Source: Fibrobacter sp. (GTDB lineage: Bacteria; Fibrobacterota; Fibrobacteria; Fibrobacterales; Fibrobacteraceae). Taken from it: a stretch of DNA of 56,325 bases. This document shows, piece after piece, positions 8,026 through 48,456 of the stretch (positions within the stretch are counted from its first letter, which is position 1; each line of letters begins with the position of its first letter). The stretch lies in assembly GCA_017503015.1 (NCBI GenBank), contig JAFVTX010000016.1:1-56325 (forward strand), given 5' to 3'. The notes beneath the pieces are model-generated. The model was not told the origin of the DNA. It did no database searches and saw only the letters and a program-made list of their open reading frames with translations. Made by a program: the position numbers and the translations under genes.

Positions 8026-8982
8026 CTGTTTTTCCACCAATTCGAGAATTTTCCGAATCGCGTCGTCCGGCGATAGGTCCGTATCTCCGCCGGCAGCCCG
8101 TGTATGCCCGCCTCCGCCGAATTCCTTGGCGATAGCGTTCACATCTACCACGTAGTTGCTCCTGAGGCTAATCTTGTACTTGCCGTTTACGGGATACAGG
8201 AACACCGCCACTTCGGTGCCGGAGACTTCACGCAGGGTGTCGATGACGTTGCTCAGGTCCACCGGCGTTACGTCGAATTCCTTCATCTTTTCGGGAGTCA
8301 CATAGGCATGTACCACGCGGCCCTCCAGGGCGAGCTTGCAGTTCTGCAGCACGAACCCGGTCACCAGCGTCTGCTTGTAAGTGCGGGTGTAGTAGGTCTC
8401 GTTCACGATGCGGGCGAAATCGATTCCCTTGTCGATAAGGGTACCCACGATTTCCATGGTCCGCTTGCCCGTGTTGCTGAACTTGAATGCTCCCGTGTCG
8501 TGGACGATTCCAAGATAGAGGCATTCTGCGGTGCGCTTGCTGATTTTGCTCGGGTCCAGCTGTTCAAAAAGCACTTGACTGGCGGAACTGGCACTTGGCT
8601 CCACGATGTTCAGGCTGCAGAGATTTTTCGGGTTGCTGATGTGGTGGTCGATGTTGCAGGTTTTCTTGGCGCTTTGTAGGCATGCCACTCCGCCTGCACC
8701 CACACGCTCAAAGGAGGGGGTGTCCATGAGCACGGCCGCGTCAAAGGGTTCGCTTCCGTCGGAGCTTTCGAAAAGCGGGAGCGCCTTGTCGGCACCGTTC
8801 AAAATCCTGTAGCTTTCCGGGAATTTTTCCAGATAGACCTGGACCTTGATATTCGGGAAATTGTCCAGGATGTAGTTGTACAGGGCCAGGGTAGAGCCGA
8901 CGCAGTCACCGTCGGGCCGGACGTGGCCGAAGATGGCCAGGGTGTTTGTGTTTTTCAAAAAATCGTCAAGCATAAAAGTCAT
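8017..8982 (-). CDS. nrnA: DHH-family oligoribonuclease / pAp phosphatase NrnA
   Basis: A 321-residue DHH/DHHA1 phosphoesterase. Visible motifs are GHVRPDGDCVGS (metal site), DTPSFER, the DHH signature NIDHHISN, and the C-terminal DHHA1 glycine motif GGGGHTRAAGG. Proteins of this type degrade nanoRNA 2-5 nt long and dephosphorylate 3'-phosphoadenosine 5'-phosphate, replacing Orn in many phyla. Length matches the family. An in-frame ATG at 8973 (MLDDF) is an alternative start. It is convergent with the S26 peptidase gene, with a 9-base overlap and no terminator between. Confidence 0.88.
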   Translation of the reverse strand: MTFMLDDFLKNTNTLAIFGHVRPDGDCVGSTLALYNYILDNFPNIKVQVYLEKFPESYRILNGADKALPLFESSDGSEPFDAAVLMDTPSFERVGAGGVACLQSAKKTCNIDHHISNPKNLCSLNIVEPSASSASQVLFEQLDPSKISKRTAECLYLGIVHDTGAFKFSNTGKRTMEIVGTLIDKGIDFARIVNETYYTRTYKQTLVTGFVLQNCKLALEGRVVHAYVTPEKMKEFDVTPVDLSNVIDTLREVSGTEVAVFLYPVNGKYKISLRSNYVVDVNAIAKEFGGGGHTRAAGGDTDLSPDDAIRKILELVEKQLI

Positions 8983-8983
8983 A

Positions 8984-9013
8984 GGAGATTCCCGCCCAAG
9001 GCGGGAATGACAG
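8984..9013. repeat. GTCAT-type palindromic repeat
   Basis: GGAGATTCCCGCC, AA, then GGCGGGAATGACAG: near-perfect hairpin at the start of nrnA, same family as 10783 and 44706. Confidence 0.75.
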
Positions 9014-9112
9014 GTTTGTGTTTACCAAATAATAGCATTTGTGGGGTGTCAGGCGTGTCAATTGCCGCGTTGGTTTGTAAATTTTTATAAACTTTTGGGG
9101 CGACGTAGCTGC

Positions 9113-9132
9113 AACTTACTAAAATGTAAGTT
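9113..9132. promoter_or_regulatory. dyad operator 1 upstream of gdhA
   Basis: AACTTAC, six bases, GTAAGTT: a perfect 7-bp inverted repeat. An identical dyad with an almost identical spacer lies exactly 82 bp downstream. The 334-nt gap before gdhA otherwise holds only the 8984 repeat and AT-rich DNA. Confidence 0.6.
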
Positions 9133-9194
9133 TTGCGTTTGTTATGCCGTGAAATTTGACGAAAATTCAAACTTTTTAAAACTGACAAAAAAAT

Positions 9195-9214
9195 AACTTA
9201 CAAAAATGTAAGTT
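9195..9214. promoter_or_regulatory. dyad operator 2 upstream of gdhA
   Basis: Second AACTTAC-N6-GTAAGTT dyad. It lies just upstream of where the -35 region of the gdhA promoter should be, so a repressor or activator bound here would contact polymerase. The binding protein is unknown. Confidence 0.6.
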
Positions 9215-9260
9215 TTTGAAGATTTTTGCCCGTTTTTCACTATTTGTCATGCCCCTTTGC

Positions 9261-9268
9261 TATCTTTA
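9261..9268 (+). promoter_or_regulatory. -10-like element of gdhA
   Basis: TATCTTTA, giving a leader of about 45 nt that includes the Shine-Dalgarno GGAG seven bases before the ATG at 9317. This is a leadered gene, in contrast to the leaderless ones. Confidence 0.45.
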
Positions 9269-9295
9269 AACCCGTTAAAAACTTTAACAATCTAA

Positions 9296-10666
<1,371 letters not shown>

Positions 10667-13114: not shown

Positions 13115-13143
13115 GCCTCGGATGAAATAATCCGAGGCTTTTT
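13115..13143 (+). terminator. terminator after ddh
   Basis: GCCTCGGAT, loop GAAATA, ATCCGAGGC, then five Ts. Confidence 0.9.
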
Positions 13144-13178: not shown

Positions 13179-13823
13179 CTATAGGAAAAATTTCTGATTG
13201 ATCTCAATCTCGATTCCCACGTATCGCGGGCCGAATTTCTTGCGGAGAGTTGTGGTAAGTCCGTCGGTGGTGCCCTTGTACGGGTAATTGAAGCGGACTT
13301 TCATGGCGGGGTAGAGCCGCTTGATTTCTGCCTTGATGACGTTTGCGTAGGCCCGTTCCTGTGGACGTGCGGGGTCGTAGAGAATCCCGATGTCGGTGTT
13401 GCGGACTTTGCCGTTTAGTTCCGGTGTAAAGCTGTGGATGCCTAGGTGGATGATTGTTGGCGCGGATTTTGCGGCTCGCGTTTTTGGCTTAAGCGCGGAA
13501 TCAACGAATTTTTCGATGGCGGCGCGGTATTCGTTCCAGTATTTTGTGGCGGATTCTTTTGCATTTTCGTTGTTGCGCAAGTAATCGCTGAATGCGCTCT
13601 TGTTGGTGATGGTGCGGTTCAGGTCCACGAACAGGCGAGAGAACTTTCCTTCACAAAAGAATTCCGGCTTGGCGAACTTCACCAGCTTGCGGAATACCTG
13701 TACGGCCCCGATGTCGTAGGCGCGGTGGGTCTTTAGAACCTCGGCAGGAACGGCTTTCTTGAACGCGGCGGGCAATTTGTTGCTGGCATGTTCGCAGGTG
13801 AGGATGAGTATTGCTTTAGCCAT
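13179..13823 (-). CDS. N-formylglutamate amidohydrolase-like protein
   Basis: A 214-residue member of the FGase (N-formylglutamate amidohydrolase) superfamily: LTCEHASNKLP near the N-terminus provides metal-binding Glu/His, RAYDIGA follows, and HLGIHSFTP supplies a further His. Classical HutG hydrolyses N-formylglutamate in histidine breakdown, but there are no hut genes here. It is the last of four minus-strand genes (C39-like peptidase, RLAN-ATP-grasp, GCS2, this). In this recurrent cassette it is predicted to hydrolyse an amide in a peptide-like product. The gap to GCS2 is 137 nt and filled with repeats. Confidence 0.82.
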   Translation of the reverse strand: MAKAILILTCEHASNKLPAAFKKAVPAEVLKTHRAYDIGAVQVFRKLVKFAKPEFFCEGKFSRLFVDLNRTITNKSAFSDYLRNNENAKESATKYWNEYRAAIEKFVDSALKPKTRAAKSAPTIIHLGIHSFTPELNGKVRNTDIGILYDPARPQERAYANVIKAEIKRLYPAMKVRFNYPYKGTTDGLTTTLRKKFGPRYVGIEIEINQKFFL

Positions 13824-13859
13824 GTTTTAAATATAAAAGGATTGTTTTGTTGATGTCTT

Positions 13860-13952
13860 CCCCGACTTGGTCGGGGACCTCCTTTTGCTTGATAAATTGA
13901 AAGGAGATGCCCGCCAGTTTATCCCGGACATGTTCCGGGACGGGCATGACAA
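13860..13952. repeat. pair of CCCG palindromes in the ligase operon
   Basis: CCCCGACTTGGTCGGGG (about 13863-13878) and GGAGATGCCCG ... CGGGCATGAC (13902-13952, enclosing ATCCCGGACATGTTCCGGGA, itself an inverted repeat). They lie between the GCS2 and amidohydrolase genes. Confidence 0.7.
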
Positions 13953-13960
13953 GTTTGGAA

Positions 13961-15190
13961 CTATTCCCCTGTTCCGTATAGCTTGTTCTCTGCGAGGCAG
14001 TGGGCGAGGCGGCCGTATTCATACACGAAATCGTCCCGGTCGGGGTCGGCTCCGACGTTCTTCACCAGGGCGCTGGCAAGGGTTCCGCGCTTGAACATCT
14101 TTTGAAGCAGTTCCTGAGAATGCTGGGAAATTTTGTCCTTTACCTTCTCGGTGATTTTAACAATCAAGTCCTGGGCTGCGATTTCGCTGGCATTGATTCC
14201 CCAGATTTTCAGGTAATCTTGATCATTTATCACTGTTTTTTCGGCGGAATGTGTGGTGGCGAGCAGGATTTTTGCGAGGGCGTCGGTGTCAAGTGCTCGA
14301 ATTTGCGACTCATTCGCAAATCTACCTTCCACAAGACCTTTCAACACGGCGACTTCCCATTCGGCAATGGCAATGTCGGCATCGGGGCATTCCTGGATGT
14401 CAACGAGTCGAATTTCAACAGCCCCGCGGTCAAATCGGGCGATGGCCCCGCGGCTATTCAAGAAGAAATGATTCAGCAAATGTTCCGGATCGTAAGGAGC
14501 AATGTCGGTTTTTACGCGGTTGAAAATCTGCTCTTCGTAATCCTTGTAGGTAAAGACCGCTTCGGGAATCACCTTGCCCGTGATGCTCGGGATTTTCTCC
14601 TGGTTGTGGCGGTAAGTTTCGATTCGTCCGTCCAAGAATCCGCAGTACTTGCTGTCCAAAAACGGGCTAGAGGCAGCGATGGCGGGAATCAGCGGCAACA
14701 GCGCACGAATGGCTGCGTGCAACTTTCCGAATTCTTCGTCGCCGTTAAAAGATAAATTGATATGGGTGGATTGCAGGTTTGCCCAGCCGTGCCCCTTGCA
14801 GTTAAAGATGCGGTCGTAGGTCTCGTAAATGTCCAGGCAATCGTAGGGCCAGAGCTTCATCTCGGCGGGGTCCATAAAGGGGTGGGCCGCCGTGGGCAAG
14901 AGCATCGCGTTAATGCTTTTGAGCGATTCGTTCGCTTTCAGAATTTCGTGATGAAAGGTCTTGCCCAAGTGCTTGAGGCTGTCGACAGGCTGTGCGCACT
15001 TGAATTCCAGCACATGGCTCACCAACTCGTTGGAAAGCCCAATCGGTCCGTGCTCCACGTCAGAGAGCTGCTGGCCGTTCTTGTCTTTTCCAAGGGGTAC
15101 ATCGGCGCGGGGGAGAACGTTCAAGGAATCACGATCCACGATCATGTATTCCATCTCGATGCCGTATCGTTGCCACAATTTATAATTCAT
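13961..15190 (-). CDS. GCS2-family carboxylate-amine ligase (gamma-glutamyl ligase-like)
   Basis: A 409-residue protein of the glutamate-cysteine ligase 2 (GCS2/YbdK) family. It begins YGIEMEYMIVD, the ATP-site start of this fold, and has PTAAHPFMDP, QSTHINLSF, the RGAIARFDRGAVEIRLVD catalytic segment, and a central FLDGRIETYR. Such enzymes couple an amino acid to a gamma-carboxylate using ATP. Next to an RLAN/RimK-type ligase rather than gshB, it is more likely to make a special peptide than glutathione. It is 68 nt downstream of the ATP-grasp gene, the gap being a CTCAAAG-type repeat. Confidence 0.85.
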   Translation of the reverse strand: MNYKLWQRYGIEMEYMIVDRDSLNVLPRADVPLGKDKNGQQLSDVEHGPIGLSNELVSHVLEFKCAQPVDSLKHLGKTFHHEILKANESLKSINAMLLPTAAHPFMDPAEMKLWPYDCLDIYETYDRIFNCKGHGWANLQSTHINLSFNGDEEFGKLHAAIRALLPLIPAIAASSPFLDSKYCGFLDGRIETYRHNQEKIPSITGKVIPEAVFTYKDYEEQIFNRVKTDIAPYDPEHLLNHFFLNSRGAIARFDRGAVEIRLVDIQECPDADIAIAEWEVAVLKGLVEGRFANESQIRALDTDALAKILLATTHSAEKTVINDQDYLKIWGINASEIAAQDLIVKITEKVKDKISQHSQELLQKMFKRGTLASALVKNVGADPDRDDFVYEYGRLAHCLAENKLYGTGE

Positions 15191-15197
15191 ATAATAA

Positions 15198-15255
15198 CCT
15201 CAAAGCACCGTAGGTGCGTGCTCATACCTCAAAGGCACGAAGTGCCGACCTCATA
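15198..15255. repeat. CTCAAAG/CTCATACCTC repeat in the ligase operon
   Basis: Two copies of a unit: CCTCAAAGCACCGTAGGTGC...CTCATA and CCTCAAAGGCACGAAGTGCCGACCTCATACCT (each written in part). Related copies at 25031, 25110, 31646 and 44735. Confidence 0.75.
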
Positions 15256-15258
15256 CCT

Positions 15259-16764
15259 CTAAAACCATTCCTTCTCGTGCATTTGCAGTTTGTGTTGTGC
15301 TGCGTTCATGCGTTCTTCGATGCGGTGGCGCAAAGACCTCATGATGGCTAGGTAAACCTTGCTCTTGCCCACGCCATCTTCGATGCCCGCGTCGATACTC
15401 GGGTTGTCGTTCACTTCGATTACAATCGGGTGTCCGTGCCATTCCTTCAAATCTACGCCGTAAAGGCCGTTGCCGATGAGGCTGCAAATCTTGAGGGCGG
15501 TTTTTACGATTCCGTGAGGCACCATCTCGATGGGGATGCTTTCGCACTTGCCCGAGAAGGATTCGCTCTTCTTGTCATCGCTTTCCCAGTTGTAGATTTG
15601 CCAGTGGCCCTTGGCCATGTGGTACTTGCATGCGTAAAGCGGTTTGCCGTCCAGCACGCCAACGCGCCAGTCGAATTCCGTCGGCGTAAATTCCTGGGCA
15701 ATTAGCAGGTCGCTGTGCTCAAACATCTCGTCGAGAATCTGTTCCAGTTCTTCTTTGTTGGTCACTTTCTTCACGCCCATAGAGAAACTGGAATCCGGCG
15801 ATTTGATGACCATGGGGAACCCGATTTCTTTGGCCAGGGTGTGGCGGTTTTCGGCGTGGGCGATAATCGTCTTCGGCGAATGAATCTTGGCCGCCTGCAT
15901 CAGTTCCTGCAGGTACACTTTGTTGGAACAGCGCAGAATGCTGTCGGGGTCGTCAATCACTGCAATGCCTTGCGACTGGGCACGGCGGGCGAAACTGTAG
16001 GTGTAGTGGTTCACGTTGGTGGTTTCGCGGATAAAAATAGCGTCGAATTCGCCTACGCGCGGGTAGTCCTTCTTAGTAATCATCTCCACGCGGAATCCCG
16101 TTTCTTCGGCAGCCTTGATGAAGTTCTGGATCGCCTGCGCATTGCTCGGCGGCTCGACTTCATCTGGGTTCGTGAGAATGCCCAAGTCATAGAGGTAGTC
16201 CTCTTCTTTACTGGTGGCGTAGCGGGTTTTCTCGAAGTATTCCTGTGCGAATTTATCGACAAATTCCATGTGGGATTCGGGAATTTCATCCACGCAAATG
16301 GGGCGGATGCTCTGGATAAACCACTTTTGCTTAAATACGAATTTCGCGCGAAGGAGCGGTGCCTGGAACAGGCGGTAAAGTTCCTGGGAAAGTTCCAGGT
16401 ATTGGGGACTCACGTTCTGCCCGAAGTATATCGAGAGCACGAATTCCGTGCCGGTCAACTTGTGGAAACTCTTTTGAATCAGCTTGTCGATTTCGTCGGA
16501 GATATGCTTGATGACCGCCGGTGCCTTGAAGTCCCGCATGTTCTTGACGCCTGGAATCACCTTGTGCCCGCGGGCTTCGGCCAATAGCGACACGTAATAG
16601 CCCTTGCTTTGGTAGTTGTAATCGCGGCAAAGGTTGAATACGCGCAGGTTGCGCTCGTTGGTGTACTTGCTGGAAATCAGGTAATCCTGTGCCGAAATGA
16701 TGTCTATGCCCGGAACGTGTAATTTCCAATGCTTGGGGTTGTTTACTACTATAAGTTTCTTCAT
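15259..16764 (-). CDS. RimK-type ATP-grasp ligase with N-terminal RLAN domain
   Basis: A 501-residue ATP-grasp ligase. Residues 1 to about 190 form the RimK-like ATP-grasp N-terminal (RLAN) domain (RNLRVFNLCRDYNYQSKGYYVSLLAEARG region); a pre-ATP-grasp segment with FIRETTNVNHYTY follows, then the ATP-grasp core: KVYLQELM, FPMVIKSPDSSFSMGV (phosphate loop), GVDLKEWHGHPIVIEVNDNPSID (metal-binding Glu/Asn). These enzymes form amide bonds through an acyl phosphate. The start is three bases after the C39-like peptidase gene. Substrate unknown; the family is known to sit beside GCS2 ligases and peptidases. Confidence 0.88.
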   Translation of the reverse strand: MKKLIVVNNPKHWKLHVPGIDIISAQDYLISSKYTNERNLRVFNLCRDYNYQSKGYYVSLLAEARGHKVIPGVKNMRDFKAPAVIKHISDEIDKLIQKSFHKLTGTEFVLSIYFGQNVSPQYLELSQELYRLFQAPLLRAKFVFKQKWFIQSIRPICVDEIPESHMEFVDKFAQEYFEKTRYATSKEEDYLYDLGILTNPDEVEPPSNAQAIQNFIKAAEETGFRVEMITKKDYPRVGEFDAIFIRETTNVNHYTYSFARRAQSQGIAVIDDPDSILRCSNKVYLQELMQAAKIHSPKTIIAHAENRHTLAKEIGFPMVIKSPDSSFSMGVKKVTNKEELEQILDEMFEHSDLLIAQEFTPTEFDWRVGVLDGKPLYACKYHMAKGHWQIYNWESDDKKSESFSGKCESIPIEMVPHGIVKTALKICSLIGNGLYGVDLKEWHGHPIVIEVNDNPSIDAGIEDGVGKSKVYLAIMRSLRHRIEERMNAAQHKLQMHEKEWF

Positions 16765-16767
16765 GAT

Positions 16768-17463
16768 TTACTTTTTTTCTATAACCAAAACATTCCCGTC
16801 GTAGGTCATGACGCCCAGCAAAATGCTGTGGAGCAGACGGAACTTGTCCACCTTGTAGTAGGGCGTCTTGTGGAGCGGATTGGTACCGTCGGGGTCGGCC
16901 ACCATGAATTGTTTCTTGTTGTCGATTCCGTAAACTACGACGAAGTGCCCCATGGGCTCGCCGTGGATGTCGTCGAATACGGACTTGTCGTCTTTGCCGG
17001 TGAATTCCCGCATGCTGCGGTACAGGTAGGTGGCCGAAAGCCCACACAGGACGGGAACTCCTTTCTTGAAGTATTTTTCGAACATGGCTGCCCGCAAGTC
17101 CTCGAATGCAACCTTCCCGCCCAGGTCGATAAAGCGGATGTAGGCCTCGATTGCCTTGCGGAGCTTGGGGGCGTGCTTTGCCTTGTGCAAAAGCTCCAGC
17201 TTTGCCTTCAGTTCGGGCATGCTAAGGGTGCTCCAGGTGGGGTCCAGGAGTGTCAGGTTGAAGGAATGTAACGTGACCTTGAACCCGCGCTTCAGGGCGT
17301 CGATGCCGAGGAACACGCCCAGTGTTCCGCCGTCTTCCAAAAATTCAATTTCGGAGATGAGCTGCTTCAGGGAAATCTTGTAGCCTAGGTGGTTATAGAC
17401 CGCTTGTAGGCTGGTGGGCCCGCAGGTAACGTCGTCGGGCTGCTGCAATATTTTTATATCCAT
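16768..17463 (-). CDS. papain-fold C39-like peptidase of the RLAN cassette
   Basis: A 231-residue protein. I chose the ATG at 17463 because it immediately precedes the conserved start DIKILQQPDDVTCGPTSL with AAAGGC upstream; a longer frame to 17562 gives an unrelated N-terminus. The Cys in DDVTCGPTS (with Gln upstream for the oxyanion hole), the His in GHFVVVYGID and the Asp in VADPDGT make the triad of C39-like double-glycine-type peptidases. No transporter is attached. As first gene of the cassette it probably trims or releases the peptide product of the two ligases. Confidence 0.8.
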   Translation of the reverse strand: MDIKILQQPDDVTCGPTSLQAVYNHLGYKISLKQLISEIEFLEDGGTLGVFLGIDALKRGFKVTLHSFNLTLLDPTWSTLSMPELKAKLELLHKAKHAPKLRKAIEAYIRFIDLGGKVAFEDLRAAMFEKYFKKGVPVLCGLSATYLYRSMREFTGKDDKSVFDDIHGEPMGHFVVVYGIDNKKQFMVADPDGTNPLHKTPYYKVDKFRLLHSILLGVMTYDGNVLVIEKK

Positions 17464-17575
17464 CGTTTTGCCTTTATAAAAGCTTGCCGGTTGCCCGGTG
17501 CTCGTCTGGCGGCTGTCGGGAAGTTTTCCCGGGTCGTCGATGGCGTGCTGTAAAGATACCAATTTTTAATCAGTT

Positions 17576-36976: not shown

Positions 36977-39900
36977 TTAGAACACGTAGTTCAGATTGAT
37001 ACCGCCGTAGATATCCTTGTATTCGTTAGACAGGTAGTCCGGACGGTAATAGATGGCAGAACCTACGTACCAGTCACTATAGAAGTGCTTGTTGTGGTTG
37101 AACCGCAGGTTGAGTTTTCCCAGCACGTCCATTTCTTCTTCGTCGAAATCTTTGTCAGATTCGGTCCATTCTGTAAGCATGTAGCGGAACTGTCCGTTCA
37201 AGGAGACGATCATGAAACGGTTCATGAAGGGAATTTCGTATTCGTCTTCTACGGTAATTTCATCTTCGGTCATTTCATTGCGGACGTATGACTTGAGGCG
37301 GTAAGTTATCTGGAAATGGTTCTGCATACTCTTGAGGGTAGTGGTGATGCTCAAGGGGTAGCTCTGCTCAAAGTAATCGCCACCGCCGTAGTAATAACCA
37401 AGCTTTGCCCATGTCGTATCTTCAAGGTCCATGTCCAGCTCGTCAATCAAGCTGTCCTTGTGGAACAGGGATGCATCTGTACGAAGAGTCCATCGGCCAT
37501 TGAACTTGAACACGGACTGTGCCGCCTTGAAGGAGATGCCGGCATTGATGGTTTGCTTGTAAAGCCTCTCTTCGAACTTGGACGCGAGATAAGGCGCATC
37601 GACCGTAGACATGTAATCAGCCCAACGTGCAGAATCCACCATGACGGTATCCCCGTTCACGATGGCCATCTTGGGGCCCTTGCCTTCGGTGAAATATTCA
37701 TCCCTGTAGATTCCGTCTTCTAGCATATAGCTTCCGCGCAAGCGAATCGGACGGTACTGGTCCCTGAATTCCATATTGTAGTTGGCGGTAATCTGCACCC
37801 TGGGATTGATGGTAAAGGTGTTGCTGAGTCCGAAATTGTGGATGTACTTTGTGCGGTCGTTGTCCATCTCGTGCTGTTCGAACCAGTCGCTTTCCTCGTC
37901 AGAGACAAGCCCGAAATGGGTTCCTTCGGCCAGGCCCGCCAGGTTTTTCTTTCTGCCGTGGGCCGCGTTTTCTACGTTAATCTGGTAGTCCAGTCCAAGG
38001 GTCCAGAACTTTTTGATGTCTTGTTCCAGGCTGGCTCCGAATTCGCGGGTGTTGGAAAGCTGGTCAGGGGAGCCTGCGCTATAGAAGTCCTCGCCGATGT
38101 ATTTCACATGGCCAGCGATTCTTGTTCTGTTGATGTTCCAGTTCAAGGAAGCGCCCAAGGCAAAATTCTGACTTCCCCAGTGTTGCCCTAGCACGCGGTC
38201 GTCATCGCGGTCGCTTTCTTCTTCTTTTTGTGCCTGCTTAGCCTTGTCGATTAGGTAATGGAGGGTAGAAATCATTTCGGATTTGCTCATGGTGGTATTG
38301 TCCCCGAAGATTTCTTCCAGTTCTTCGTTAGAAAGCCTGTCAATCTGGCTTTCGTTCTGCATCAGCTTACGAAGCTGCGTGTAGCTTGCGGTATTCAATC
38401 CGGCGCTGGAGAACAACCGGTTGATGGCACGCTGCCTTGCGGCATCGGTGGTGTCTGCACGACCGACGGCGATTTGTCCGTTCAGCTCGATATCACCCGG
38501 GAAGAACAGCCAGTTGCCTTCGGCATACATGGTGAATGCTTCCAGAAGAGGATCGGTGGTAAGGGTACTAGCCTTGGCTCCGTCGCGGAGAAGCGGGTCT
38601 TCAAGTTCGTCGTTTGCGTAAATAGCGCCCACCTTGGCGTCGAACCTGCGGACCGGAGCCCATTTCAGGAATCCGCCGTAGGCAAGGCGCTGGGCCTGAG
38701 CTTCACCATCATCGATGTAATCGTTATAGAGATAGGGGTGACGGTTGTGGGGAACCAGGGAACGCTTGGCCTCGCCAAAGAAACCTTCCAACTGGACCAG
38801 GGGCTGATCCGCATTGTTCTTGAGCAAGGACAGGGTATACTCGGCACCGAACAGGGGCATGCCCGACATGTAGATATCTCCGCCCATCATCTGGAAATCA
38901 CCCAGGTTGACACTGTTGTAGCTATCATTGTAGCGCAGTGTCACGGGGTTCGGGTAGAATCGGTTCCAGGAATCCGATGTGGCATCCATGGTAAATTCGA
39001 TGGTCTTGCCTTCGGGTGACATCATCAGCACGTAAGCCGAGGCATTTGCGCCAAAACCCGGCACCTGGAAATAATTCTTGTAGCGGTCGCCCTTGAGAAT
39101 GGTATCCGTTCCAAAGATTTCAGGAGTATTACCGTGGTGAGTGCGGGTACGCACATAGTGGTAGTTTCCGCCCAGCATCACGTTTCCAAGGACAGTCCAG
39201 CTCTTTTGCGTAGAATCCGCAGGGGCTTCAGATTCAAATACCACGTTGGCTTCGTCGGCAGGATTCAGGTTCTTCCGATCCACACCGGGAACTTCCGGTT
39301 CGGGGGGAAGCGTTGCTATGGCTTCTGCAGCCTTGTTGCTGAAATTGGTCTTGTTGTTCTTGGCGGTCTCCATGAGTTCGGGAGCAAGAATTTCCGAAGA
39401 GGAAATACCCACCGTGTTTTGTTCAATGGCGGTATTGTTCAAGTCAATGACGGTGTTCCCCATATTCACCACAGCCGTACCGTTGTCCTTGAAATTTGAA
39501 GAGGACACGGTACTCTTCGAAAGCTTGGAATTCAACAGGGCGACATTGTTGTTTTCAAAAGTAGACCGTTCGATATCGCCCTGGGCGTAGTGGGAGAGGT
39601 TCAGGGCAACCTGGTTGTTCTTGAACTGGCAGTCGTTTGCATTGACGGTGGCGTTACGAGCATAAATGCCATATCCGGCGGCACCTTCCACAAGGGAATT
39701 CTGGATTTTCAGATTGCCGTTTTCCACTACGATTCCGTTGGTGGCGTTCAAGATCTGGGCGTTGCGGATTTCGGAGTTGTTTTCTCCGGTAATCACGATT
39801 CCGGCCCAATCACCAGCAGCGGGAGTACTCATGGCGGAGCGGAACACCACAGGAGATGTTGCAGTTCCGGCCACCACCAGCTGGCCCTGGTTTACCGTGA

Positions 39901-40576
39901 GGGAGCTACCCTTGGTGAACAAGATTGTGGTTCCCGGTTCAATGACCAATACCGTATTGGCGGCAACAGATACTGTTCCGTTTACGAGATAGGGAGACTT
40001 GTCCGCTTTTAAGAAACCGCGGAGTTCACCCTGGAGTTCTGTGCCGGTCAGCTGAACGTTTTGCGGTTCTGGTGCGGGAGCGGCCTCTACGACCGGAGCG
40101 GGAGTGGCCACGGGGGCAGCTTCAACCGGAGCTGGAGCGACAGCCTGTTCAGCTGGGGTTTCGGCAACAGGTGCAGCGTTGGGTGCAGGTTCTGCTGCAG
40201 GCACGGGTTCAGCAACGGTCTGTTCGGCAGGAGCCGTTTCTGCGGCTGCAGGTTCGGCTGTTTCAGGAGCAGGGGCTTGTGCAGAAGCATCAGCCGGAGC
40301 AGCCTGTTCGGCAGGTTGTGCTACCGGCGTTGGCGCAGGGCTTGCAGCTTCTTGGACCGGGGCAGCTGCTTCGGCAGCAGGTGCCGGAGTTGTTGCTACG
40401 GGTGCCGGTGTCGCAGCGGCAGGAGCAGCAACTGGAGCAGGCGCTGGGGCTTGTTCAGGAGCTGCCGTTGGAGCGGGCGCTGGAGCTGCCTGTGTGGCAG
40501 GGGCGGCCTCTTGGGCAAATGCAAAGAATGTTCCCAGAAGGACTGTAGCGACGGTACCCTTAAAAAACTGTTTCAT
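36977..40576 (-). CDS. giant outer-membrane protein: Ala/Pro-rich stalk, beta-helix, beta-barrel
   Basis: An 1199-residue protein. Signal peptide to about residue 22. Residues about 23-170: Ala/Pro/Glu repeat (APAPTAAPE style), a likely periplasm- or wall-spanning stalk. About 175-400: right-handed parallel beta-helix with repeating NATNGIVVENGNLKIQNS-like rungs. About 450-1199: long strand-rich region with aromatic girdles, interrupted near residue 760-800 by a charged helical segment, and ending in a C-terminal Phe (INLNYVF), the mark of Bam-inserted barrels. The start directly abuts the stop of the FecR-domain gene. I know no named family with this order. Possibly a surface attachment or export protein. 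Confidence 0.8.
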   Translation of the reverse strand: MKQFFKGTVATVLLGTFFAFAQEAAPATQAAPAPAPTAAPEQAPAPAPVAAPAAATPAPVATTPAPAAEAAAPVQEAASPAPTPVAQPAEQAAPADASAQAPAPETAEPAAAETAPAEQTVAEPVPAAEPAPNAAPVAETPAEQAVAPAPVEAAPVATPAPVVEAAPAPEPQNVQLTGTELQGELRGFLKADKSPYLVNGTVSVAANTVLVIEPGTTILFTKGSSLTVNQGQLVVAGTATSPVVFRSAMSTPAAGDWAGIVITGENNSEIRNAQILNATNGIVVENGNLKIQNSLVEGAAGYGIYARNATVNANDCQFKNNQVALNLSHYAQGDIERSTFENNNVALLNSKLSKSTVSSSNFKDNGTAVVNMGNTVIDLNNTAIEQNTVGISSSEILAPELMETAKNNKTNFSNKAAEAIATLPPEPEVPGVDRKNLNPADEANVVFESEAPADSTQKSWTVLGNVMLGGNYHYVRTRTHHGNTPEIFGTDTILKGDRYKNYFQVPGFGANASAYVLMMSPEGKTIEFTMDATSDSWNRFYPNPVTLRYNDSYNSVNLGDFQMMGGDIYMSGMPLFGAEYTLSLLKNNADQPLVQLEGFFGEAKRSLVPHNRHPYLYNDYIDDGEAQAQRLAYGGFLKWAPVRRFDAKVGAIYANDELEDPLLRDGAKASTLTTDPLLEAFTMYAEGNWLFFPGDIELNGQIAVGRADTTDAARQRAINRLFSSAGLNTASYTQLRKLMQNESQIDRLSNEELEEIFGDNTTMSKSEMISTLHYLIDKAKQAQKEEESDRDDDRVLGQHWGSQNFALGASLNWNINRTRIAGHVKYIGEDFYSAGSPDQLSNTREFGASLEQDIKKFWTLGLDYQINVENAAHGRKKNLAGLAEGTHFGLVSDEESDWFEQHEMDNDRTKYIHNFGLSNTFTINPRVQITANYNMEFRDQYRPIRLRGSYMLEDGIYRDEYFTEGKGPKMAIVNGDTVMVDSARWADYMSTVDAPYLASKFEERLYKQTINAGISFKAAQSVFKFNGRWTLRTDASLFHKDSLIDELDMDLEDTTWAKLGYYYGGGDYFEQSYPLSITTTLKSMQNHFQITYRLKSYVRNEMTEDEITVEDEYEIPFMNRFMIVSLNGQFRYMLTEWTESDKDFDEEEMDVLGKLNLRFNHNKHFYSDWYVGSAIYYRPDYLSNEYKDIYGGINLNYVF

Positions 40577-42457
40577 TTAGCGTACCTCGTAAGTCTTGGT
40601 GGCTTTGAGAACCTTGCCGTTCTTCAAGACAACCTGGATGTTGATTTCTGTTTTTTTGCCGTATTCCAGTTCCACAGGGACGCTGAAGTTGAAATCTTGA
40701 ATGGACGGGGAATATTGTTCCAAAAGATTTTTGTTTCCGCTTGTGACAAGAACGCTCTTTATGTGGCTGATGTCATTTTCGGGAATTCCCTTGATAGAGA
40801 AAACTATTTCACGTTCAAATCTTCTGGACACTCCGTTGGGTGGAGGAGGTACGCGTAAGCGTTCCACGTTGCCCTTTCGAACATCTATATAGGCTGAGAT
40901 ATTCGGGTAACACCCTAGTTTCTTTCGAATTTCAGCCTTGTTTCCAGCCTGGTCACGGGCAATCCAGGCGTAATCGTGGAGTCCGGATTTGAGTTTGATA
41001 GTGGAGTAGGAATTCTTGTCGAAATAAGTCTCTTTAAGAGGAGTCCGGTCCATTTCGGTTGAGAGGATGACAATGTCGTCCTTGATGTTTGAAACAGAAA
41101 CGCTGGCTTCACAACGGATGGAATCGCTACGCTGGAAAATCAGTGCGGGCTTGTCTAAGTTTATAGCCTCGCAGCTCTTGTCAATCTCCAAATCCACTTT
41201 GACGGTCGCCTTGCCGGTTGCCCCGTTGAATTCAACAGTTGCGAACTTCTCGTTCCAGTTGCCCTTCTGGTCGCTGATGGTAATGGTATAGGTCCATTTT
41301 CCGTTTGCACTTAGGGGTACCAGGTTGGGGGAGGTGTGCTTGCCCAATTTTACAAACAGGGTTGCCGTAGAATCATCTGGGTTGAATTCGCCCTCGATGG
41401 TTGCCGCTCCCGTTTCGCAAATCTTGAGTGGCGAAGGCGTGGTTACCTGGAACGAAATCGCTGTCGTCTGACTTGCAGAATCCTTTACCGTTGTATCGGG
41501 CTGTTGCATATAGTAGGTCTTCAGGTCGGCACAGCCGAAGCTCACCTTTCCGCTGTAGCAGATAACGGGGAATTTCTTGTCACCAACGGCGCTGGGAGCC
41601 CAGTTGGGAGTGAACTGGACCATTTCTCCGGTAGATTCGATTCTCTCTCCGCCAAGTTCCACGCCTACACCGGCAGGGCAGGTTCCCTTGATGGCTACAC
41701 TCGGGGTATAGATGGTGTCGGGGAGGGCTTCGAAGGTGCACTTGAGGGAGTCTTTGGCGGCGGTCTGCTTGGCCTTGTACTCGTTATCCTTTGCCTGAAT
41801 CGCCTCTTTCAGTTTGTCTAGGGTCATGGTGGTATCGCTGAGCATGGCGTCGATTTCGTTCAAGAAATCCAGGTCACCCGAGGAGGATAGTTCCAAAACC
41901 AGAAAGTCGTCGCCGTTGGGGACGGCCGTTTGGCCTCCATTGATGCCTACCACCTTGCCGGACAAGTCGATTTCCAGGCGTCCGTTGCGGAGGGATGCGA
42001 TGGGAGTGCCCTTGGAGCTCATGCCGATGACACCGTCAGTTCCGCGGATGGCGGCCGTGGCGGTTCCGGTCTTGAATTTGAAGGAGCTCTCCTTGCTGGA
42101 CTGTTTCTGTACGTCAAAGCGGACCTTGCCGCTCTTGATGTCGGTCATGGCCGTCTGGACTCCGTCCTCGGACAGCAGTTGGGAGAATTCCACCAGGGAG
42201 TTCTCTTCTACCGAGATGGTACTGCCGTCGGGCAGGGCCACAATGGCCTGGGATTCTACCAGGGTCCTGATAACGTCTTTTTCTTTGACCTTCGCCCCTA
42301 CACGGAGAGGCACCCAGTTGCCTTCGGATTTCTTTTGGGTGGTCACGTCACCGATGACGGAACGGACCTTGCCCGAGGTGTTTTTGGCTGCATAGGAGAA
42401 CGGAACCGCCAACATGAGTGCGACGGCCACAAACTTAAAACGGCTTGAAAATGACAT
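40577..42457 (-). CDS. exported FecR-domain protein with Ig-like repeats
   Basis: A 626-residue protein with a signal peptide (to SYAA, about residue 23). Residues about 30-150 form a FecR domain (GKVRSVIGDVT, VIRTLVESQAIVALPDGSTISV, FKFKTGTATAAIRGTDGVIG). The remainder looks like three or more Ig-like beta-sandwich repeats with paired Cys and short Pro-rich linkers (RVPPPPNG). No TonB-receptor sigma factor genes are near, so it is not a classical FecR regulator; FecR domains also occur in secreted structural proteins. It is followed without any gap by the beta-helix/barrel protein, suggesting that the two work together at the surface. AGAGGGG precedes the ATG. Confidence 0.82.
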   Translation of the reverse strand: MSFSSRFKFVAVALMLAVPFSYAAKNTSGKVRSVIGDVTTQKKSEGNWVPLRVGAKVKEKDVIRTLVESQAIVALPDGSTISVEENSLVEFSQLLSEDGVQTAMTDIKSGKVRFDVQKQSSKESSFKFKTGTATAAIRGTDGVIGMSSKGTPIASLRNGRLEIDLSGKVVGINGGQTAVPNGDDFLVLELSSSGDLDFLNEIDAMLSDTTMTLDKLKEAIQAKDNEYKAKQTAAKDSLKCTFEALPDTIYTPSVAIKGTCPAGVGVELGGERIESTGEMVQFTPNWAPSAVGDKKFPVICYSGKVSFGCADLKTYYMQQPDTTVKDSASQTTAISFQVTTPSPLKICETGAATIEGEFNPDDSTATLFVKLGKHTSPNLVPLSANGKWTYTITISDQKGNWNEKFATVEFNGATGKATVKVDLEIDKSCEAINLDKPALIFQRSDSIRCEASVSVSNIKDDIVILSTEMDRTPLKETYFDKNSYSTIKLKSGLHDYAWIARDQAGNKAEIRKKLGCYPNISAYIDVRKGNVERLRVPPPPNGVSRRFEREIVFSIKGIPENDISHIKSVLVTSGNKNLLEQYSPSIQDFNFSVPVELEYGKKTEINIQVVLKNGKVLKATKTYEVR

Positions 42458-44705: not shown

Positions 44706-44733
44706 GGAGATCCCCGCCTTCGCGGGGATGACA
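44706..44733. repeat. GTCAT-type palindromic repeat
   Basis: GGAGATCCCCGCC, TTC, GCGGGGATGAC: inverted copy of the 10783 element. Confidence 0.8.
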
Positions 44734-44734
44734 T

Positions 44735-44795
44735 CCTCAAAGGCCGTAAGGCCGCGCTCATCGCTCAAAGCGACGAAGTCGCGACCTCATACCTC
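44735..44795. repeat. CTCAAAG...CGACCTCATACCTC repeat at the end of the PFOR gene
   Basis: CCTCAAAGGCCGTAAGGCCG and GCTCAAAGCGACGAAGTCGC, each with an internal small hairpin, then GACCTCATACCTC. Same unit as 15198. Confidence 0.78.
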
Positions 44796-44796
44796 T

Positions 44797-47700
44797 TTAC
44801 AGGCTAATCAACCCTTCGGTATCCTTGCTCATGGCGTCATAGAATGCGTAGCGGGCGTCAACTTCCTTCTGGAGGTCGTCGGCGAGCTTCTTGGCCACTT
44901 CCGGATTGCTACGGGTGAGCTGCTTGTAGCGGTTTTCGGTGTAGATGTATTCTGCAACCGGGATCGTCGGCTTCTTGGAGTCGAGGATAAGCGGGGCCTT
45001 TCCTTCGGCGGCGAGAGCCGGGTTGTAACGGAGCAGAGTCCAGTAACCGGAATCCACGGCCATCTTCTGGTGCTGAAGCTGGCTGTTGAGATCGAAACCG
45101 TGGTTGATGCAGGGGCAGTAGCAGATGATCAGCGACGGACCATTGTGTGCTTCTGCTTCCTGGAGAACCTTCAGGGCCTGAGCGTCGTTTGCGCCGAGGG
45201 CGATACGGCCCACGTAAACGTTCTTGTAGCTCATGGCGATAAGGCCGAGGTCCTTCTTGCCGGCGCGCTTACCAGCGGCAGCGAAGAGGGCGACGGCGCC
45301 ACGGTTCGTGGCCTTGGAAGCCTGTCCACCGGTGTTGGAGTACACTTCGGTATCGAGGACGCAGATGTTCACGTTTTCGCCGGTTGCCATCACGTGGTCG
45401 AGACCACCGTAACCGATGTCGTATGCCCAACCGTCACCACCGAAGATCCACACGGACTTCTTCACGAGGTAGTCGGCGAATTCGTCGCGGAGGCTGACGG
45501 ATGCTTCGTCGGTTGCACCGGCGAGAGCTGCCTTCAGGGCGGCGACGTTTTCACGCTGGGCCTTGATGCCGGCTTCGTCGTCCTGCTTCTGGGTCGTGAG
45601 CTTTTCCTTGAGTTCGGCAGGAACGTTCACGGCTTCGAGGAGGCTGAGAGCCTGCTTGGCATGCTTCGTGATAGCGAGACGCATACCGAGACCGAATTCA
45701 GCGTTGTCTTCGAAGAGGCTGTTGGCCCAAGCGGGACCGCGGCCTTCCTTGTTCTTTGCCCACGGAGTGGTCGGGAGGTTACCGCCGTAAATGGAGGAGC
45801 AACCCGTAGCGTTGGCAACGACCATGCGATCACCGAACAGCTGAGAAACGAGACGCACGTAAGCGGTTTCGCCGCAGCCTGCGCAGCTTCCGGAGAATTC
45901 GAACAGCGGTTCCAGGAGCATGGCCTGCTTGACGAGGCTCTTGTTGACCTTGGTGCGGTCGAATTCCGGGAGGTCGACGAAGAAGTCCCAGCACTTGCCT
46001 TCCTGAACCTTGATGGGTTCCTGCGGCACCATGTTGATGGCCTTCTTGGTTTCGTCGGTCTTGTCCTTACCGATACAGGCCTGCGTACAGACGCCGCAAC
46101 CCGTACAGTCGTAGCTGGACACGGAAATGGCGAACACCGGCTTTTCGGAACCTTCGAGCTTGAAGCCCTTGGCCGGAGTGTACTTGAAGCCTTCCGGAGC
46201 GTTCTTCACTGCGGATTCGTCAACGACCTTCACGCGGATGGCTGCATGCGGGCAGACCATAGCGCACTTGCCGCACTGCACGCAAGCGTCCGGATTCCAG
46301 GACGGGATGTTGAGGGCGAGGTCGCGCTTTTCGTATTTGGTGGTACCGGTCGGGAACACACCGTCGCAAGGCATCTTGGAGACCGGGAGCTGTTCGCCGT
46401 TGCCCTTGATGATTTCTGCGGTGACTTCGTTCACGAACTTCGGAGCGTTGCCGTGGATCGGAGCGCGGAATTCCTTGGTGCTGGTGACAGTAGCAGGAAC
46501 CTTGACTTCGAACAGGTTAGCAAGAGAGGCGTCGATAGCGTCCCAGTTCTTCTGGACCACTTCCTGACCCTTCTTGGCGTAGGTCTTTTCGGCGTACTTC
46601 TTGATGTACTTGATGGCGGTTTCGGCATCGAGCACGTTACCGAGCTTAGAGAAGAAGCAGGTCTGCATTACGGTGTTGATGCGGCGGCCCATGCCGGTCT
46701 TCGCGGCAACGGCGTAGGCGTCGATCACATACACCTTGAGGTGCTTCTTGATGATTTCTTCCTGCACCGGACGCGGGAAGGTATCCCACACGGTGTCGGC
46801 AGAATGCGGAGTATTCACGAGGAAGGTCGCGCCATCCTTCGCGTACTTCAGCATGTTCACGGATTCCAGGTGCGGAGTGTGGTGGCATGCCACGAAGTCG
46901 GCTTCGTTTTCGCCAATCAGGTACGGGGCGTCGATGATGCTCTTACCAAAGCGGAGGTGAGAGGTGGTCATGGAGCCGGACTTCTTGGAGTCGTAAACGA
47001 AGTAGCCCTGGGCGTAGTTGTCGGTTTCGTTACCGATAATCTTGATGGAGTTCTTGTTGGCACCCACTGTACCGTCGGAACCCAGACCGAAGAACATGGC
47101 CTGGAAGAAGTCGCTTTCCAGCTTGAAGTTCGGGTCGATGGTGAGGCTCGTGTGGCAAACGTCGTCGTTGATACCGACAGTGAAGCGAGCCTTCGGGTCG
47201 GCCTTGGCGAGTTCGTCGTAGATGGCCTTGACCATGGCCGGGGTGAATTCCTTGGAAGAGAGACCGTAGCGGCCGCCGATCATCTTCGGCATGGCCATCT
47301 TGCCTGCCATCACGGCTTCGCTGATTGCGGTCAGGGCGTCCTGGAAGAGCGGTTCGCCAGCGGAACCCGGTTCCTTGCAGCGGTCGAGGACGGCAATCTT
47401 CTTGACAGTCTTCGGGAGGGCTGCAACGACGGCTTCCATCGGGAACGGGCGGTACAGGCGAATGTTCACGAGACCGACCTTTTCGCCCTTGGAATTGAGG
47501 TACTTGACGGTGTCACCGATGGTGCAGGTCGAAGAACCCATGGAAATAATCACGCGGTCAGCGTCGGGTGCACCGACGTAATCCACGATGTGGTACTGAC
47601 GGCCAGTGTAGCTTGCGACCTTGTCCATGTACTTCTGGACAATTTCCGGAACCTTGGCGTAGAACGGGTTTACCGTTTCGCGGCCCTGGAAGTAAACGTC

Positions 47701-48366
47701 CGGGTTCTGTGCGGTACCGCGCATGGTCGGGCGGTCCGGGGTGAGGCAGCGCTGCCGGCATGCCTTCACGTACTTTTCGTCGATGACGTTACGGATAACG
47801 CCGTCTTCGAGAGCTTCGATCTTCATCACTTCGTGGGAGGTACGGAAACCGTCGAAGAAGTGCATAAACGGAACGCGGCTTTCGAGAGTGGAAGCGTGGG
47901 CCACGAGAGCGAGGTCCTGGCATTCCTGCACGCAGCTGGAGGCGAGCATGGCAAAGCCGGTCTGGCGGCAAGCCATCACGTCGGAGTGGTCACCGAAAAT
48001 AGAAAGGCCCTGCATGGCAAGGGCACGGGCAGTCACATGGAAGACCGTGGGGGTCAGTTCGCCCGCAATCTTGTACATGTTCGGGATCATCAAGAGAAGA
48101 CCCTGGGAAGCGGTGAAGGTCGTGGTCAAAGCACCGGCCTGGAGCGCTCCGTGAACGGTACCGGCAGCGCCACCTTCGGACTGCATTTCAAACACGCGGG
48201 GAACCTGTCCCCAAATATTCTTCTTGCCTGCAGCACTCCAGTTGTCGGCGTGCTCAGCCATAGGACTAGACGGTGTAATCGGGTAGATAGCCGCAACTTC
48301 GCTAACAGCAAATGCTACGCTAGCGGTGGCCTCGTTACCATCACACGCAATCATCTTTTTTGCCAT
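44797..48366 (-). CDS. nifJ: pyruvate:ferredoxin (flavodoxin) oxidoreductase
   Basis: An 1189-residue homodimer-type PFOR that oxidises pyruvate to acetyl-CoA and CO2 with reduction of ferredoxin. ATG 48366 (GGAGA eight bases upstream) is preferred to a TTG at 48378. Domain I: AIYPITPSSPMAEHAD; the central 2x[4Fe-4S] ferredoxin domain shows CVQCGKCAMVCPHAA and CTGCGVCTQACIG; the C-terminal TPP domain has GSCAGCGETAYV, FGGDGWAYDIGYGGLDH and NICVLDTEVYSNTGGQ. Length is typical. It is a central enzyme of fermentation in Fibrobacter. Strong codon bias explains the long open antisense frame opposite it. Confidence 0.97.
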   Translation of the reverse strand: MAKKMIACDGNEATASVAFAVSEVAAIYPITPSSPMAEHADNWSAAGKKNIWGQVPRVFEMQSEGGAAGTVHGALQAGALTTTFTASQGLLLMIPNMYKIAGELTPTVFHVTARALAMQGLSIFGDHSDVMACRQTGFAMLASSCVQECQDLALVAHASTLESRVPFMHFFDGFRTSHEVMKIEALEDGVIRNVIDEKYVKACRQRCLTPDRPTMRGTAQNPDVYFQGRETVNPFYAKVPEIVQKYMDKVASYTGRQYHIVDYVGAPDADRVIISMGSSTCTIGDTVKYLNSKGEKVGLVNIRLYRPFPMEAVVAALPKTVKKIAVLDRCKEPGSAGEPLFQDALTAISEAVMAGKMAMPKMIGGRYGLSSKEFTPAMVKAIYDELAKADPKARFTVGINDDVCHTSLTIDPNFKLESDFFQAMFFGLGSDGTVGANKNSIKIIGNETDNYAQGYFVYDSKKSGSMTTSHLRFGKSIIDAPYLIGENEADFVACHHTPHLESVNMLKYAKDGATFLVNTPHSADTVWDTFPRPVQEEIIKKHLKVYVIDAYAVAAKTGMGRRINTVMQTCFFSKLGNVLDAETAIKYIKKYAEKTYAKKGQEVVQKNWDAIDASLANLFEVKVPATVTSTKEFRAPIHGNAPKFVNEVTAEIIKGNGEQLPVSKMPCDGVFPTGTTKYEKRDLALNIPSWNPDACVQCGKCAMVCPHAAIRVKVVDESAVKNAPEGFKYTPAKGFKLEGSEKPVFAISVSSYDCTGCGVCTQACIGKDKTDETKKAINMVPQEPIKVQEGKCWDFFVDLPEFDRTKVNKSLVKQAMLLEPLFEFSGSCAGCGETAYVRLVSQLFGDRMVVANATGCSSIYGGNLPTTPWAKNKEGRGPAWANSLFEDNAEFGLGMRLAITKHAKQALSLLEAVNVPAELKEKLTTQKQDDEAGIKAQRENVAALKAALAGATDEASVSLRDEFADYLVKKSVWIFGGDGWAYDIGYGGLDHVMATGENVNICVLDTEVYSNTGGQASKATNRGAVALFAAAGKRAGKKDLGLIAMSYKNVYVGRIALGANDAQALKVLQEAEAHNGPSLIICYCPCINHGFDLNSQLQHQKMAVDSGYWTLLRYNPALAAEGKAPLILDSKKPTIPVAEYIYTENRYKQLTRSNPEVAKKLADDLQKEVDARYAFYDAMSKDTEGLISL

Positions 48367-48456
48367 GTGTGTCTCCAATTTTTAGGTTTTTTCGAAAAAA
48401 TCTGATTTAAGTGCACTTTCGGCCCATTTGGAGCCAAAAGCGAAAAATCCAAGATG

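Follow-up and report, generated by a model that had tools for sequence, protein, structure and literature searches.

The first-pass annotation had placed four minus-strand genes at 13179-17463, and all four are present there, each above its Pfam cut-off. They lie within a window of 56,325 nucleotides, the whole stretch of Fibrobacter sp. DNA that was analysed, and are listed here in the order of transcription, together with the parts of the ligase and the one long intergenic stretch.

16768..17463, minus strand: C39-like papain-fold cysteine peptidase or acyltransferase, 231 aa, first in transcription order
15259..16764, minus strand: RLAN plus RimK-type ATP-grasp ligase, 501 aa (Pfam RLAN and RimK)
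16255..16692, minus strand: RLAN domain of the ligase (PF14401 match)
15313..16191, minus strand: RimK/LysX/ArgX-like ATP-grasp half of the ligase, residues 192-484 (VIA-align Z 27.1-25.6)
13961..15190, minus strand: GCS2 carboxylate-amine ligase, 409 aa (PF04107)
13824..13960, no strand: stretch between GCS2 and FGase, holding small palindromes and longer than is usual in this operon (from the sequence)
13179..13823, minus strand: FGase, an N-formylglutamate-amidohydrolase-like hydrolase, 214 aa (PF05013)

The C39-like gene starts at the ATG at 17463, and an extension to a TTG at 17562 is unneeded. Counted from the ORF coordinates, the junctions from C39 through RLAN and GCS2 to FGase measure 3, 68, and 137 nt, looser than at other loci. 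A sequence scan found a hairpin with an 8-bp stem in the last of these gaps (13859-13877), and promoter and terminator scans of the window gave a signal no higher than that of shuffles. In the host genome, RLAN, GCS2, and FGase each have a single match, and all three lie at this locus; the nearest loci returned by the relative search encode ligases that are 96-99% identical. PADLOC gave zero matches across the C39-like, ligase, GCS2, and FGase proteins, leaving a defence role without support.

Several other features of the window were recorded. A gene with a Fib_succ_major domain (Pfam) lies close to the four genes, and short GC-rich palindromes and an inverted pair lie between genes at 13859-13877, 13115-13138, and 10797-10812/13900-13915, possibly forming a dispersed Fibrobacter repeat element. 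About 3.6 kb is open on both strands (44728-48405 and 44797-48378, 1225 and 1193 aa); the translation of the plus strand looks antisense-like and lacks any Pfam match, and the minus strand may carry the real gene. A 1199-aa ORF with no Pfam match (36977-40576) is found directly downstream of a FecR-domain protein (40577-42457).

At the level of protein families, the ligase matches RLAN (1.2e-47) and RimK (5.6e-11), the GCS2 protein PF04107 (2.1e-17), the FGase protein PF05013 (6.5e-21), and the C39-like protein both Peptidase_C39_2 (5.6e-10) and Peptidase_C39 (2.1e-08), all above cut-off. Residues unchanged among aligned homologues include Gln, Cys, His, and Asp of the C39-like protein (15 homologues), K282, K321, D438, E450, and N454 of the ATP-grasp half (24 ligases, with N452 in 23), E12, E14, E62, H143, N245, R247, and R261 of GCS2 (17 sequences), and E11-H12, D37, R63, N69-R70, and H130-S131 of FGase (13 sequences). 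By this measure, the active sites of all four enzymes are intact.

Residues 190-490 of the ligase model (pLDDT 82) match LysX, ArgX, and RimK with Z 27.1-25.6, with Ddl at about 22 and GshB at 21.4 behind them; this search list was occupied by the ATP-grasp half, and the RLAN fold lies outside its coverage. The AlphaFold model of the C39-like protein (pLDDT 88) matches the ComA peptidase with Z 15.1 over 135 residues, phytochelatin synthase Alr0975 with Z 14.4 over 157 residues (14.0-14.4 across Alr0975 structures, including the glutathione acyl-enzyme), and PeiR with Z 14.3, and PCAT1 is also among the top matches. Because these proteins are near-tied, the C39-like protein is papain-like without assignment to a specific substrate, and the analogy to Alr0975 is not specific, the model fitting the ComA and PCAT1 leader peptidases and PeiR equally well. 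A Pfam scan found no transporter domain in this protein, and the Phytochelatin family (C83) is absent from its matches at E 0.1, though the fold is close nonetheless. For GCS2, the nearest PDB relative is YbdK (1r8g), a weak profile-search match (E 3e-4), and a single-sequence phmmer search of the PDB gave zero matches. The FGase protein has a PDB relative in 2odf and zero NCBIfam matches at E 0.1, HutG included.

Gene order across phyla and the divided operon of a Fibrobacter sublineage

A search for relatives with the ligase returned 79 loci, to which more were added from Bacteroidota and Spirochaetota genomes; Pseudomonadota were sampled through plasmid matches only. RLAN is sporadic, being found in 23 of 198 Bacteroidota and 14 of 100 Spirochaetota genomes (counts that include the search-centre genomes) and, within the phylum of the Desulfobulbaceae, in 1 of 118 sampled genomes, namely the search-centre genome. 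The order C39-RLAN-GCS2-FGase recurs in Fibrobacter, Pontibacter, Rufibacter, Cesiribacter, Alkaliflexus, a Spirochaetes bacterium, and Desulfobulbaceae. Counting the 109 RLAN loci with adequate flanking DNA, many of which are close Fibrobacter relatives, all four genes are present at 49, FGase alone is missing at 17, RLAN and GCS2 stand by themselves at 17, RLAN, GCS2, and FGase occur together at 6, the ligase has the size of a GNAT fusion at 11, and none of C39, GCS2, or FGase is found at 9. Same-strand gaps at 40 representative loci have medians of 0 nt (C39 to RLAN), -4 nt (RLAN to GCS2), and -4 nt (GCS2 to FGase), with the GCS2 and FGase genes overlapping in most. The surrounding neighbourhoods differ between genomes: no small ORF suggestive of a precursor or carrier recurs in the 40 loci beyond triplets of near relatives, and no further gene family was found to be widely common to the RLAN loci, in a survey whose transporter search was non-exhaustive. 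The four-gene arrangement is therefore not a product of chance but a genuine and widely distributed operon. Neither hydrolase is indispensable everywhere: Flavobacteria keep RLAN-GCS2-FGase, with no C39 of the window's family found in the genome, and other lineages have no linked FGase.

Individual loci show further variation. Legionella adelaidensis also carries RLAN-GCS2-FGase without C39 (NZ_LR134436.1, 2-3229), on a 9-kb circular record annotated as a plasmid, where the ligase is interrupted by the record start in the coordinates used. In Cesiribacter andamanensis, FGase is spread over two ORFs (8610-9359 of locus L083), possibly through a frameshift or sequencing error. Four Spirochaetota loci (L136, L137, L138, and L139) have an RLAN-RimK gene with no recognised adjoining GCS2 or C39 and no GNAT among the neighbours scanned. 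On the Pseudomonas aeruginosa plasmid pZYPA1927 (locus L110, 4908-6494), a stand-alone RLAN-RimK gene has a PLP aminotransferase and a LuxR regulator as neighbours and glutamate/aspartate ABC transporter genes no more than 5 kb away.

In one Fibrobacter sublineage, RLAN-GCS2 is found without neighbouring C39 and FGase. In seven of these split genomes (G001, G004, G006, G013, G014, G019, and G031), C39 and FGase adjoin each other at a second locus, ordered as in the operon and overlapping or a few bases apart, and in G008 the two are also separated from each other, with all families retained. The split is probably derived, since the linked arrangement is the widespread one. Across 61 genomes, RLAN and C39 are both present in 33, discordant in 3 and 1, and both absent in 24 (Fisher 1e-12), and the value for RLAN and FGase is 1.5e-8 (within the genus, 2e-4 and 5e-3, respectively); these statistics ignore shared ancestry, in genomes that are phylogenetically non-independent and in some cases incomplete. 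FGase occurs alone in G043 and G055. The split operon together with this co-retention is the best evidence in our analysis that the four genes share one pathway. Conserved order, near-overlapping junctions, and co-retention after the split bear out the earlier proposal that two unrelated ligases act as one functional unit with a papain-fold hydrolase and an amidohydrolase, and the separate RLAN-GCS2 and C39-FGase loci point to a separable ligase module and hydrolase module. The peptidase and amidohydrolase, which the first-pass annotation had cast as trimming or recycling enzymes, do pair as a module of their own, but trimming by the C39-like protein is less sure, as it could instead be a transpeptidase.

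A likely exchange of GCS2 and GNAT

The ligase of Bacteroidales and some Spirochaetota carries an N-terminal GNAT domain (checked by Pfam in 2 proteins and inferred in the others by length and alignment). These fused ligases have no nearby GCS2, C39, or FGase of the window's families, and within 12 GNAT-fusion genomes the window's C39 family is absent save for one marginal fragment match. In Azospirillum and at two Spirochaetota loci, RLAN-RimK is instead adjoined by a fusion of GNAT with DUF3335, a C39-like domain related to the window's C39 family (96.7%), and the GNAT domains of the two kinds of fusion are alike (99.7% probability). GCS2 and GNAT never occur together in any context examined, as expected for alternative N-acylating steps, and the opening step of the pathway looks like an N-acylation whose enzyme can be exchanged.

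In an unrooted tree of 62 ligases, most GNAT fusions fall inside the GCS2-type sequences, at forks with support of 92/81 and 92/84 (not starred), and one long-branched fusion falls outside them. On these sequences, the acylating partner has likely been exchanged at least once; the direction of the exchange is less certain, the root not being placed. Fibrobacter and Desulfobulbaceae fall among the Bacteroidota on the tree, which suggests horizontal transfer. It is possible, and we put it forward tentatively, that these loci represent a cycle, not characterised before, for a peptide-type metabolite or cofactor, with ligase and hydrolase modules of its own and horizontally shared among several phyla, in which the N-cap may interchangeably be a gamma-glutamyl group from GCS2 or an acyl group from GNAT.

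A proposed make-and-recycle cycle and its alternatives

The reading we favour, at a probability of about 0.48, is that the operon makes and recycles a small glutamate-containing peptide as a free metabolite, with two bonds made and two broken. Such a two-bond cycle is in keeping with an operon of two amide-forming enzymes, which differ in fold, and two amide-cleaving ones. The substrate assignments come from the families: the glutamate gamma-carboxyl group for GCS2, glutamate as amine donor for RimK-type ligases, and an acyl-glutamate amide for FGase. First, GCS2 would activate a carboxylate (the gamma-carboxylate of glutamate is the likeliest) and join it to an amine, creating a gamma-glutamyl-capped acceptor. 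Then, with ATP, the RLAN-RimK ligase would activate the carboxylate of the capped acceptor and attach a second amino acid by its alpha-amine; as with RimK, LysX, and ArgX, this amino acid is most likely glutamate. The product is probably a small gamma-glutamyl peptide extended with glutamate. The C39-like enzyme would cleave the resulting gamma-glutamyl peptide at its peptide bond, or catalyse a transfer there, in the manner of Alr0975 (NsPCS), by which glutathione is hydrolysed to gamma-Glu-Cys (gamma-EC) and Gly (PMC12065762). Finally, FGase would hydrolyse the remaining acyl-glutamate-type amide, releasing free glutamate. We infer the substrates, the order of the steps, and the free-metabolite nature of the product; a protein or carrier acceptor encoded elsewhere may be a further possibility against the latter.

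An acceptor of that kind is central to an alternative that we consider unlikely, in which amino acids are added by RLAN-RimK to a protein or carrier, at its C terminus or on a side chain; GCS2 would cap or branch this tag, and C39 and FGase would take it off. Protein acceptors are indeed used by the enzymes structurally nearest to the ATP-grasp half (RimK with RpsF, LysX and ArgX with LysW), a macromolecule could be bound by the extra RLAN domain, papain-fold proteins often serve as deconjugases, and RimB and RimK of Pseudomonas provide a ligase-protease pair acting on RpsF (PMC12239564). However, no conserved small ORF or carrier lies beside the cassette in the 40 loci, and sporadic RLAN loci in differing neighbourhoods would be odd for a ribosomal target. 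To our knowledge, a GCS2 step is also uncommon in known tagging systems.

A pathway to glutathione, gamma-glutamylcysteine, or ophthalmate, with GCS2 acting like GshA, RLAN-RimK like GshB, and C39 as a PCS-like enzyme degrading glutathione, is improbable, although the enzyme classes and their order match, the C39-like model is close to Alr0975, and the genome holds nothing to make such a pathway redundant: GCS1 has zero matches, and the sole GSH-S_ATP match, on another contig, is below the GshB cut-off. Against it, GCS2 scores 28.6 bits for gshA_cyano (NCBIfam), where the cut-off is 249.05, and the ligase 32.2 for the GshB family glut_syn (NCBIfam), where it is 299.05; the ATP-grasp half is nearer to LysX, ArgX, and RimK (Z 25.6-27.1) than to GshB (21.4); and the apparent exchange of GCS2 and GNAT is unexpected for gamma-Glu-Cys synthesis. 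We know of no role for FGase in glutathione metabolism. Plain glutathione synthesis, the outcome that the first-pass annotation had set against its own proposal, is thus disfavoured by the equivalog scores, by the lack of GCS1 or a cut-off-level GshB in the host genome, and by the RimK/LysX/ArgX-like ATP-grasp half.

Maturation of a graspetide-like ribosomal peptide, with C39 as leader peptidase, has very little probability: C39 peptidases do process leader peptides and graspetides are made by ATP-grasp ligases (PMC8939145), but the ATP-grasp half is RimK-like, no precursor-like small ORF recurs in the 40 loci beyond the near-relative triplets, and no additional gene family is widely common to the loci (with a non-exhaustive transporter search). 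That the genes are unrelated neighbours, with FGase drawn from histidine degradation, deserves almost no weight, since single genes of these families do stand alone elsewhere (as FGase does in G043 and G055) but cross-phylum order, near-overlapping genes, and co-retention after the split contradict it, and FGase has no NCBIfam match, HutG included. For the make-and-recycle cycle, the split operon, the pairing of two ligases with two hydrolases, and the alternation of GCS2 and GNAT render a vague prediction testable, and the carriers include non-model but cultivated bacteria (Fibrobacter, Rufibacter, Pontibacter, and Salegentibacter).

Comparison with known systems

The glutathione pathway, taken together with Alr0975/NsPCS (PMC12065762), resembles the operon in its succession of a GCS-type ligase, an ATP-grasp ligase, and a papain-fold enzyme. 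The operon differs in its extra RLAN domain and its FGase, in ligases that fall far below the GshA and GshB cut-offs, and in having no Phytochelatin Pfam match. The RimK/RimB and Rlo systems of Pseudomonas also pair a RimK-type ligase with a protease that undoes its product, but the protease is retropepsin-like, there is no GCS2 or FGase, and RimK is without RLAN (PMC12239564). The nearest fold to the ATP-grasp half is that of the LysX/ArgX-LysW system (Z up to 27.1), in which an amino acid is joined through its alpha-amine to a gamma-carboxyl group; LysX and ArgX use the LysW carrier, whereas the 40 operon loci are without a LysW-like small ORF. HutG, an N-formylglutamate amidohydrolase, shares the Pfam FGase family with the operon's enzyme, but the window's FGase adjoins GCS2, outside a histidine-degradation operon, and has no NCBIfam match at E 0.1.

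The four-gene operon is an instance of a predicted, uncharacterised class of system. In 2009, Iyer et al. reportedly predicted that neighbourhoods of RLAN-RimK, GCS2, GNAT, and papain-like peptidase genes yield unknown peptide-like products or tags. The first-pass annotation's statement that no RLAN-RimK product is established holds for the literature searched, which took in few subscription journals and reports none experimentally. Compared with the neighbourhoods reportedly described by Iyer et al. (2009), the domain classes are identical, and what the present analysis appears to add is the module split with co-retention, the placement of GNAT and GCS2 on the ligase tree, and the comparison of the C39 fold.
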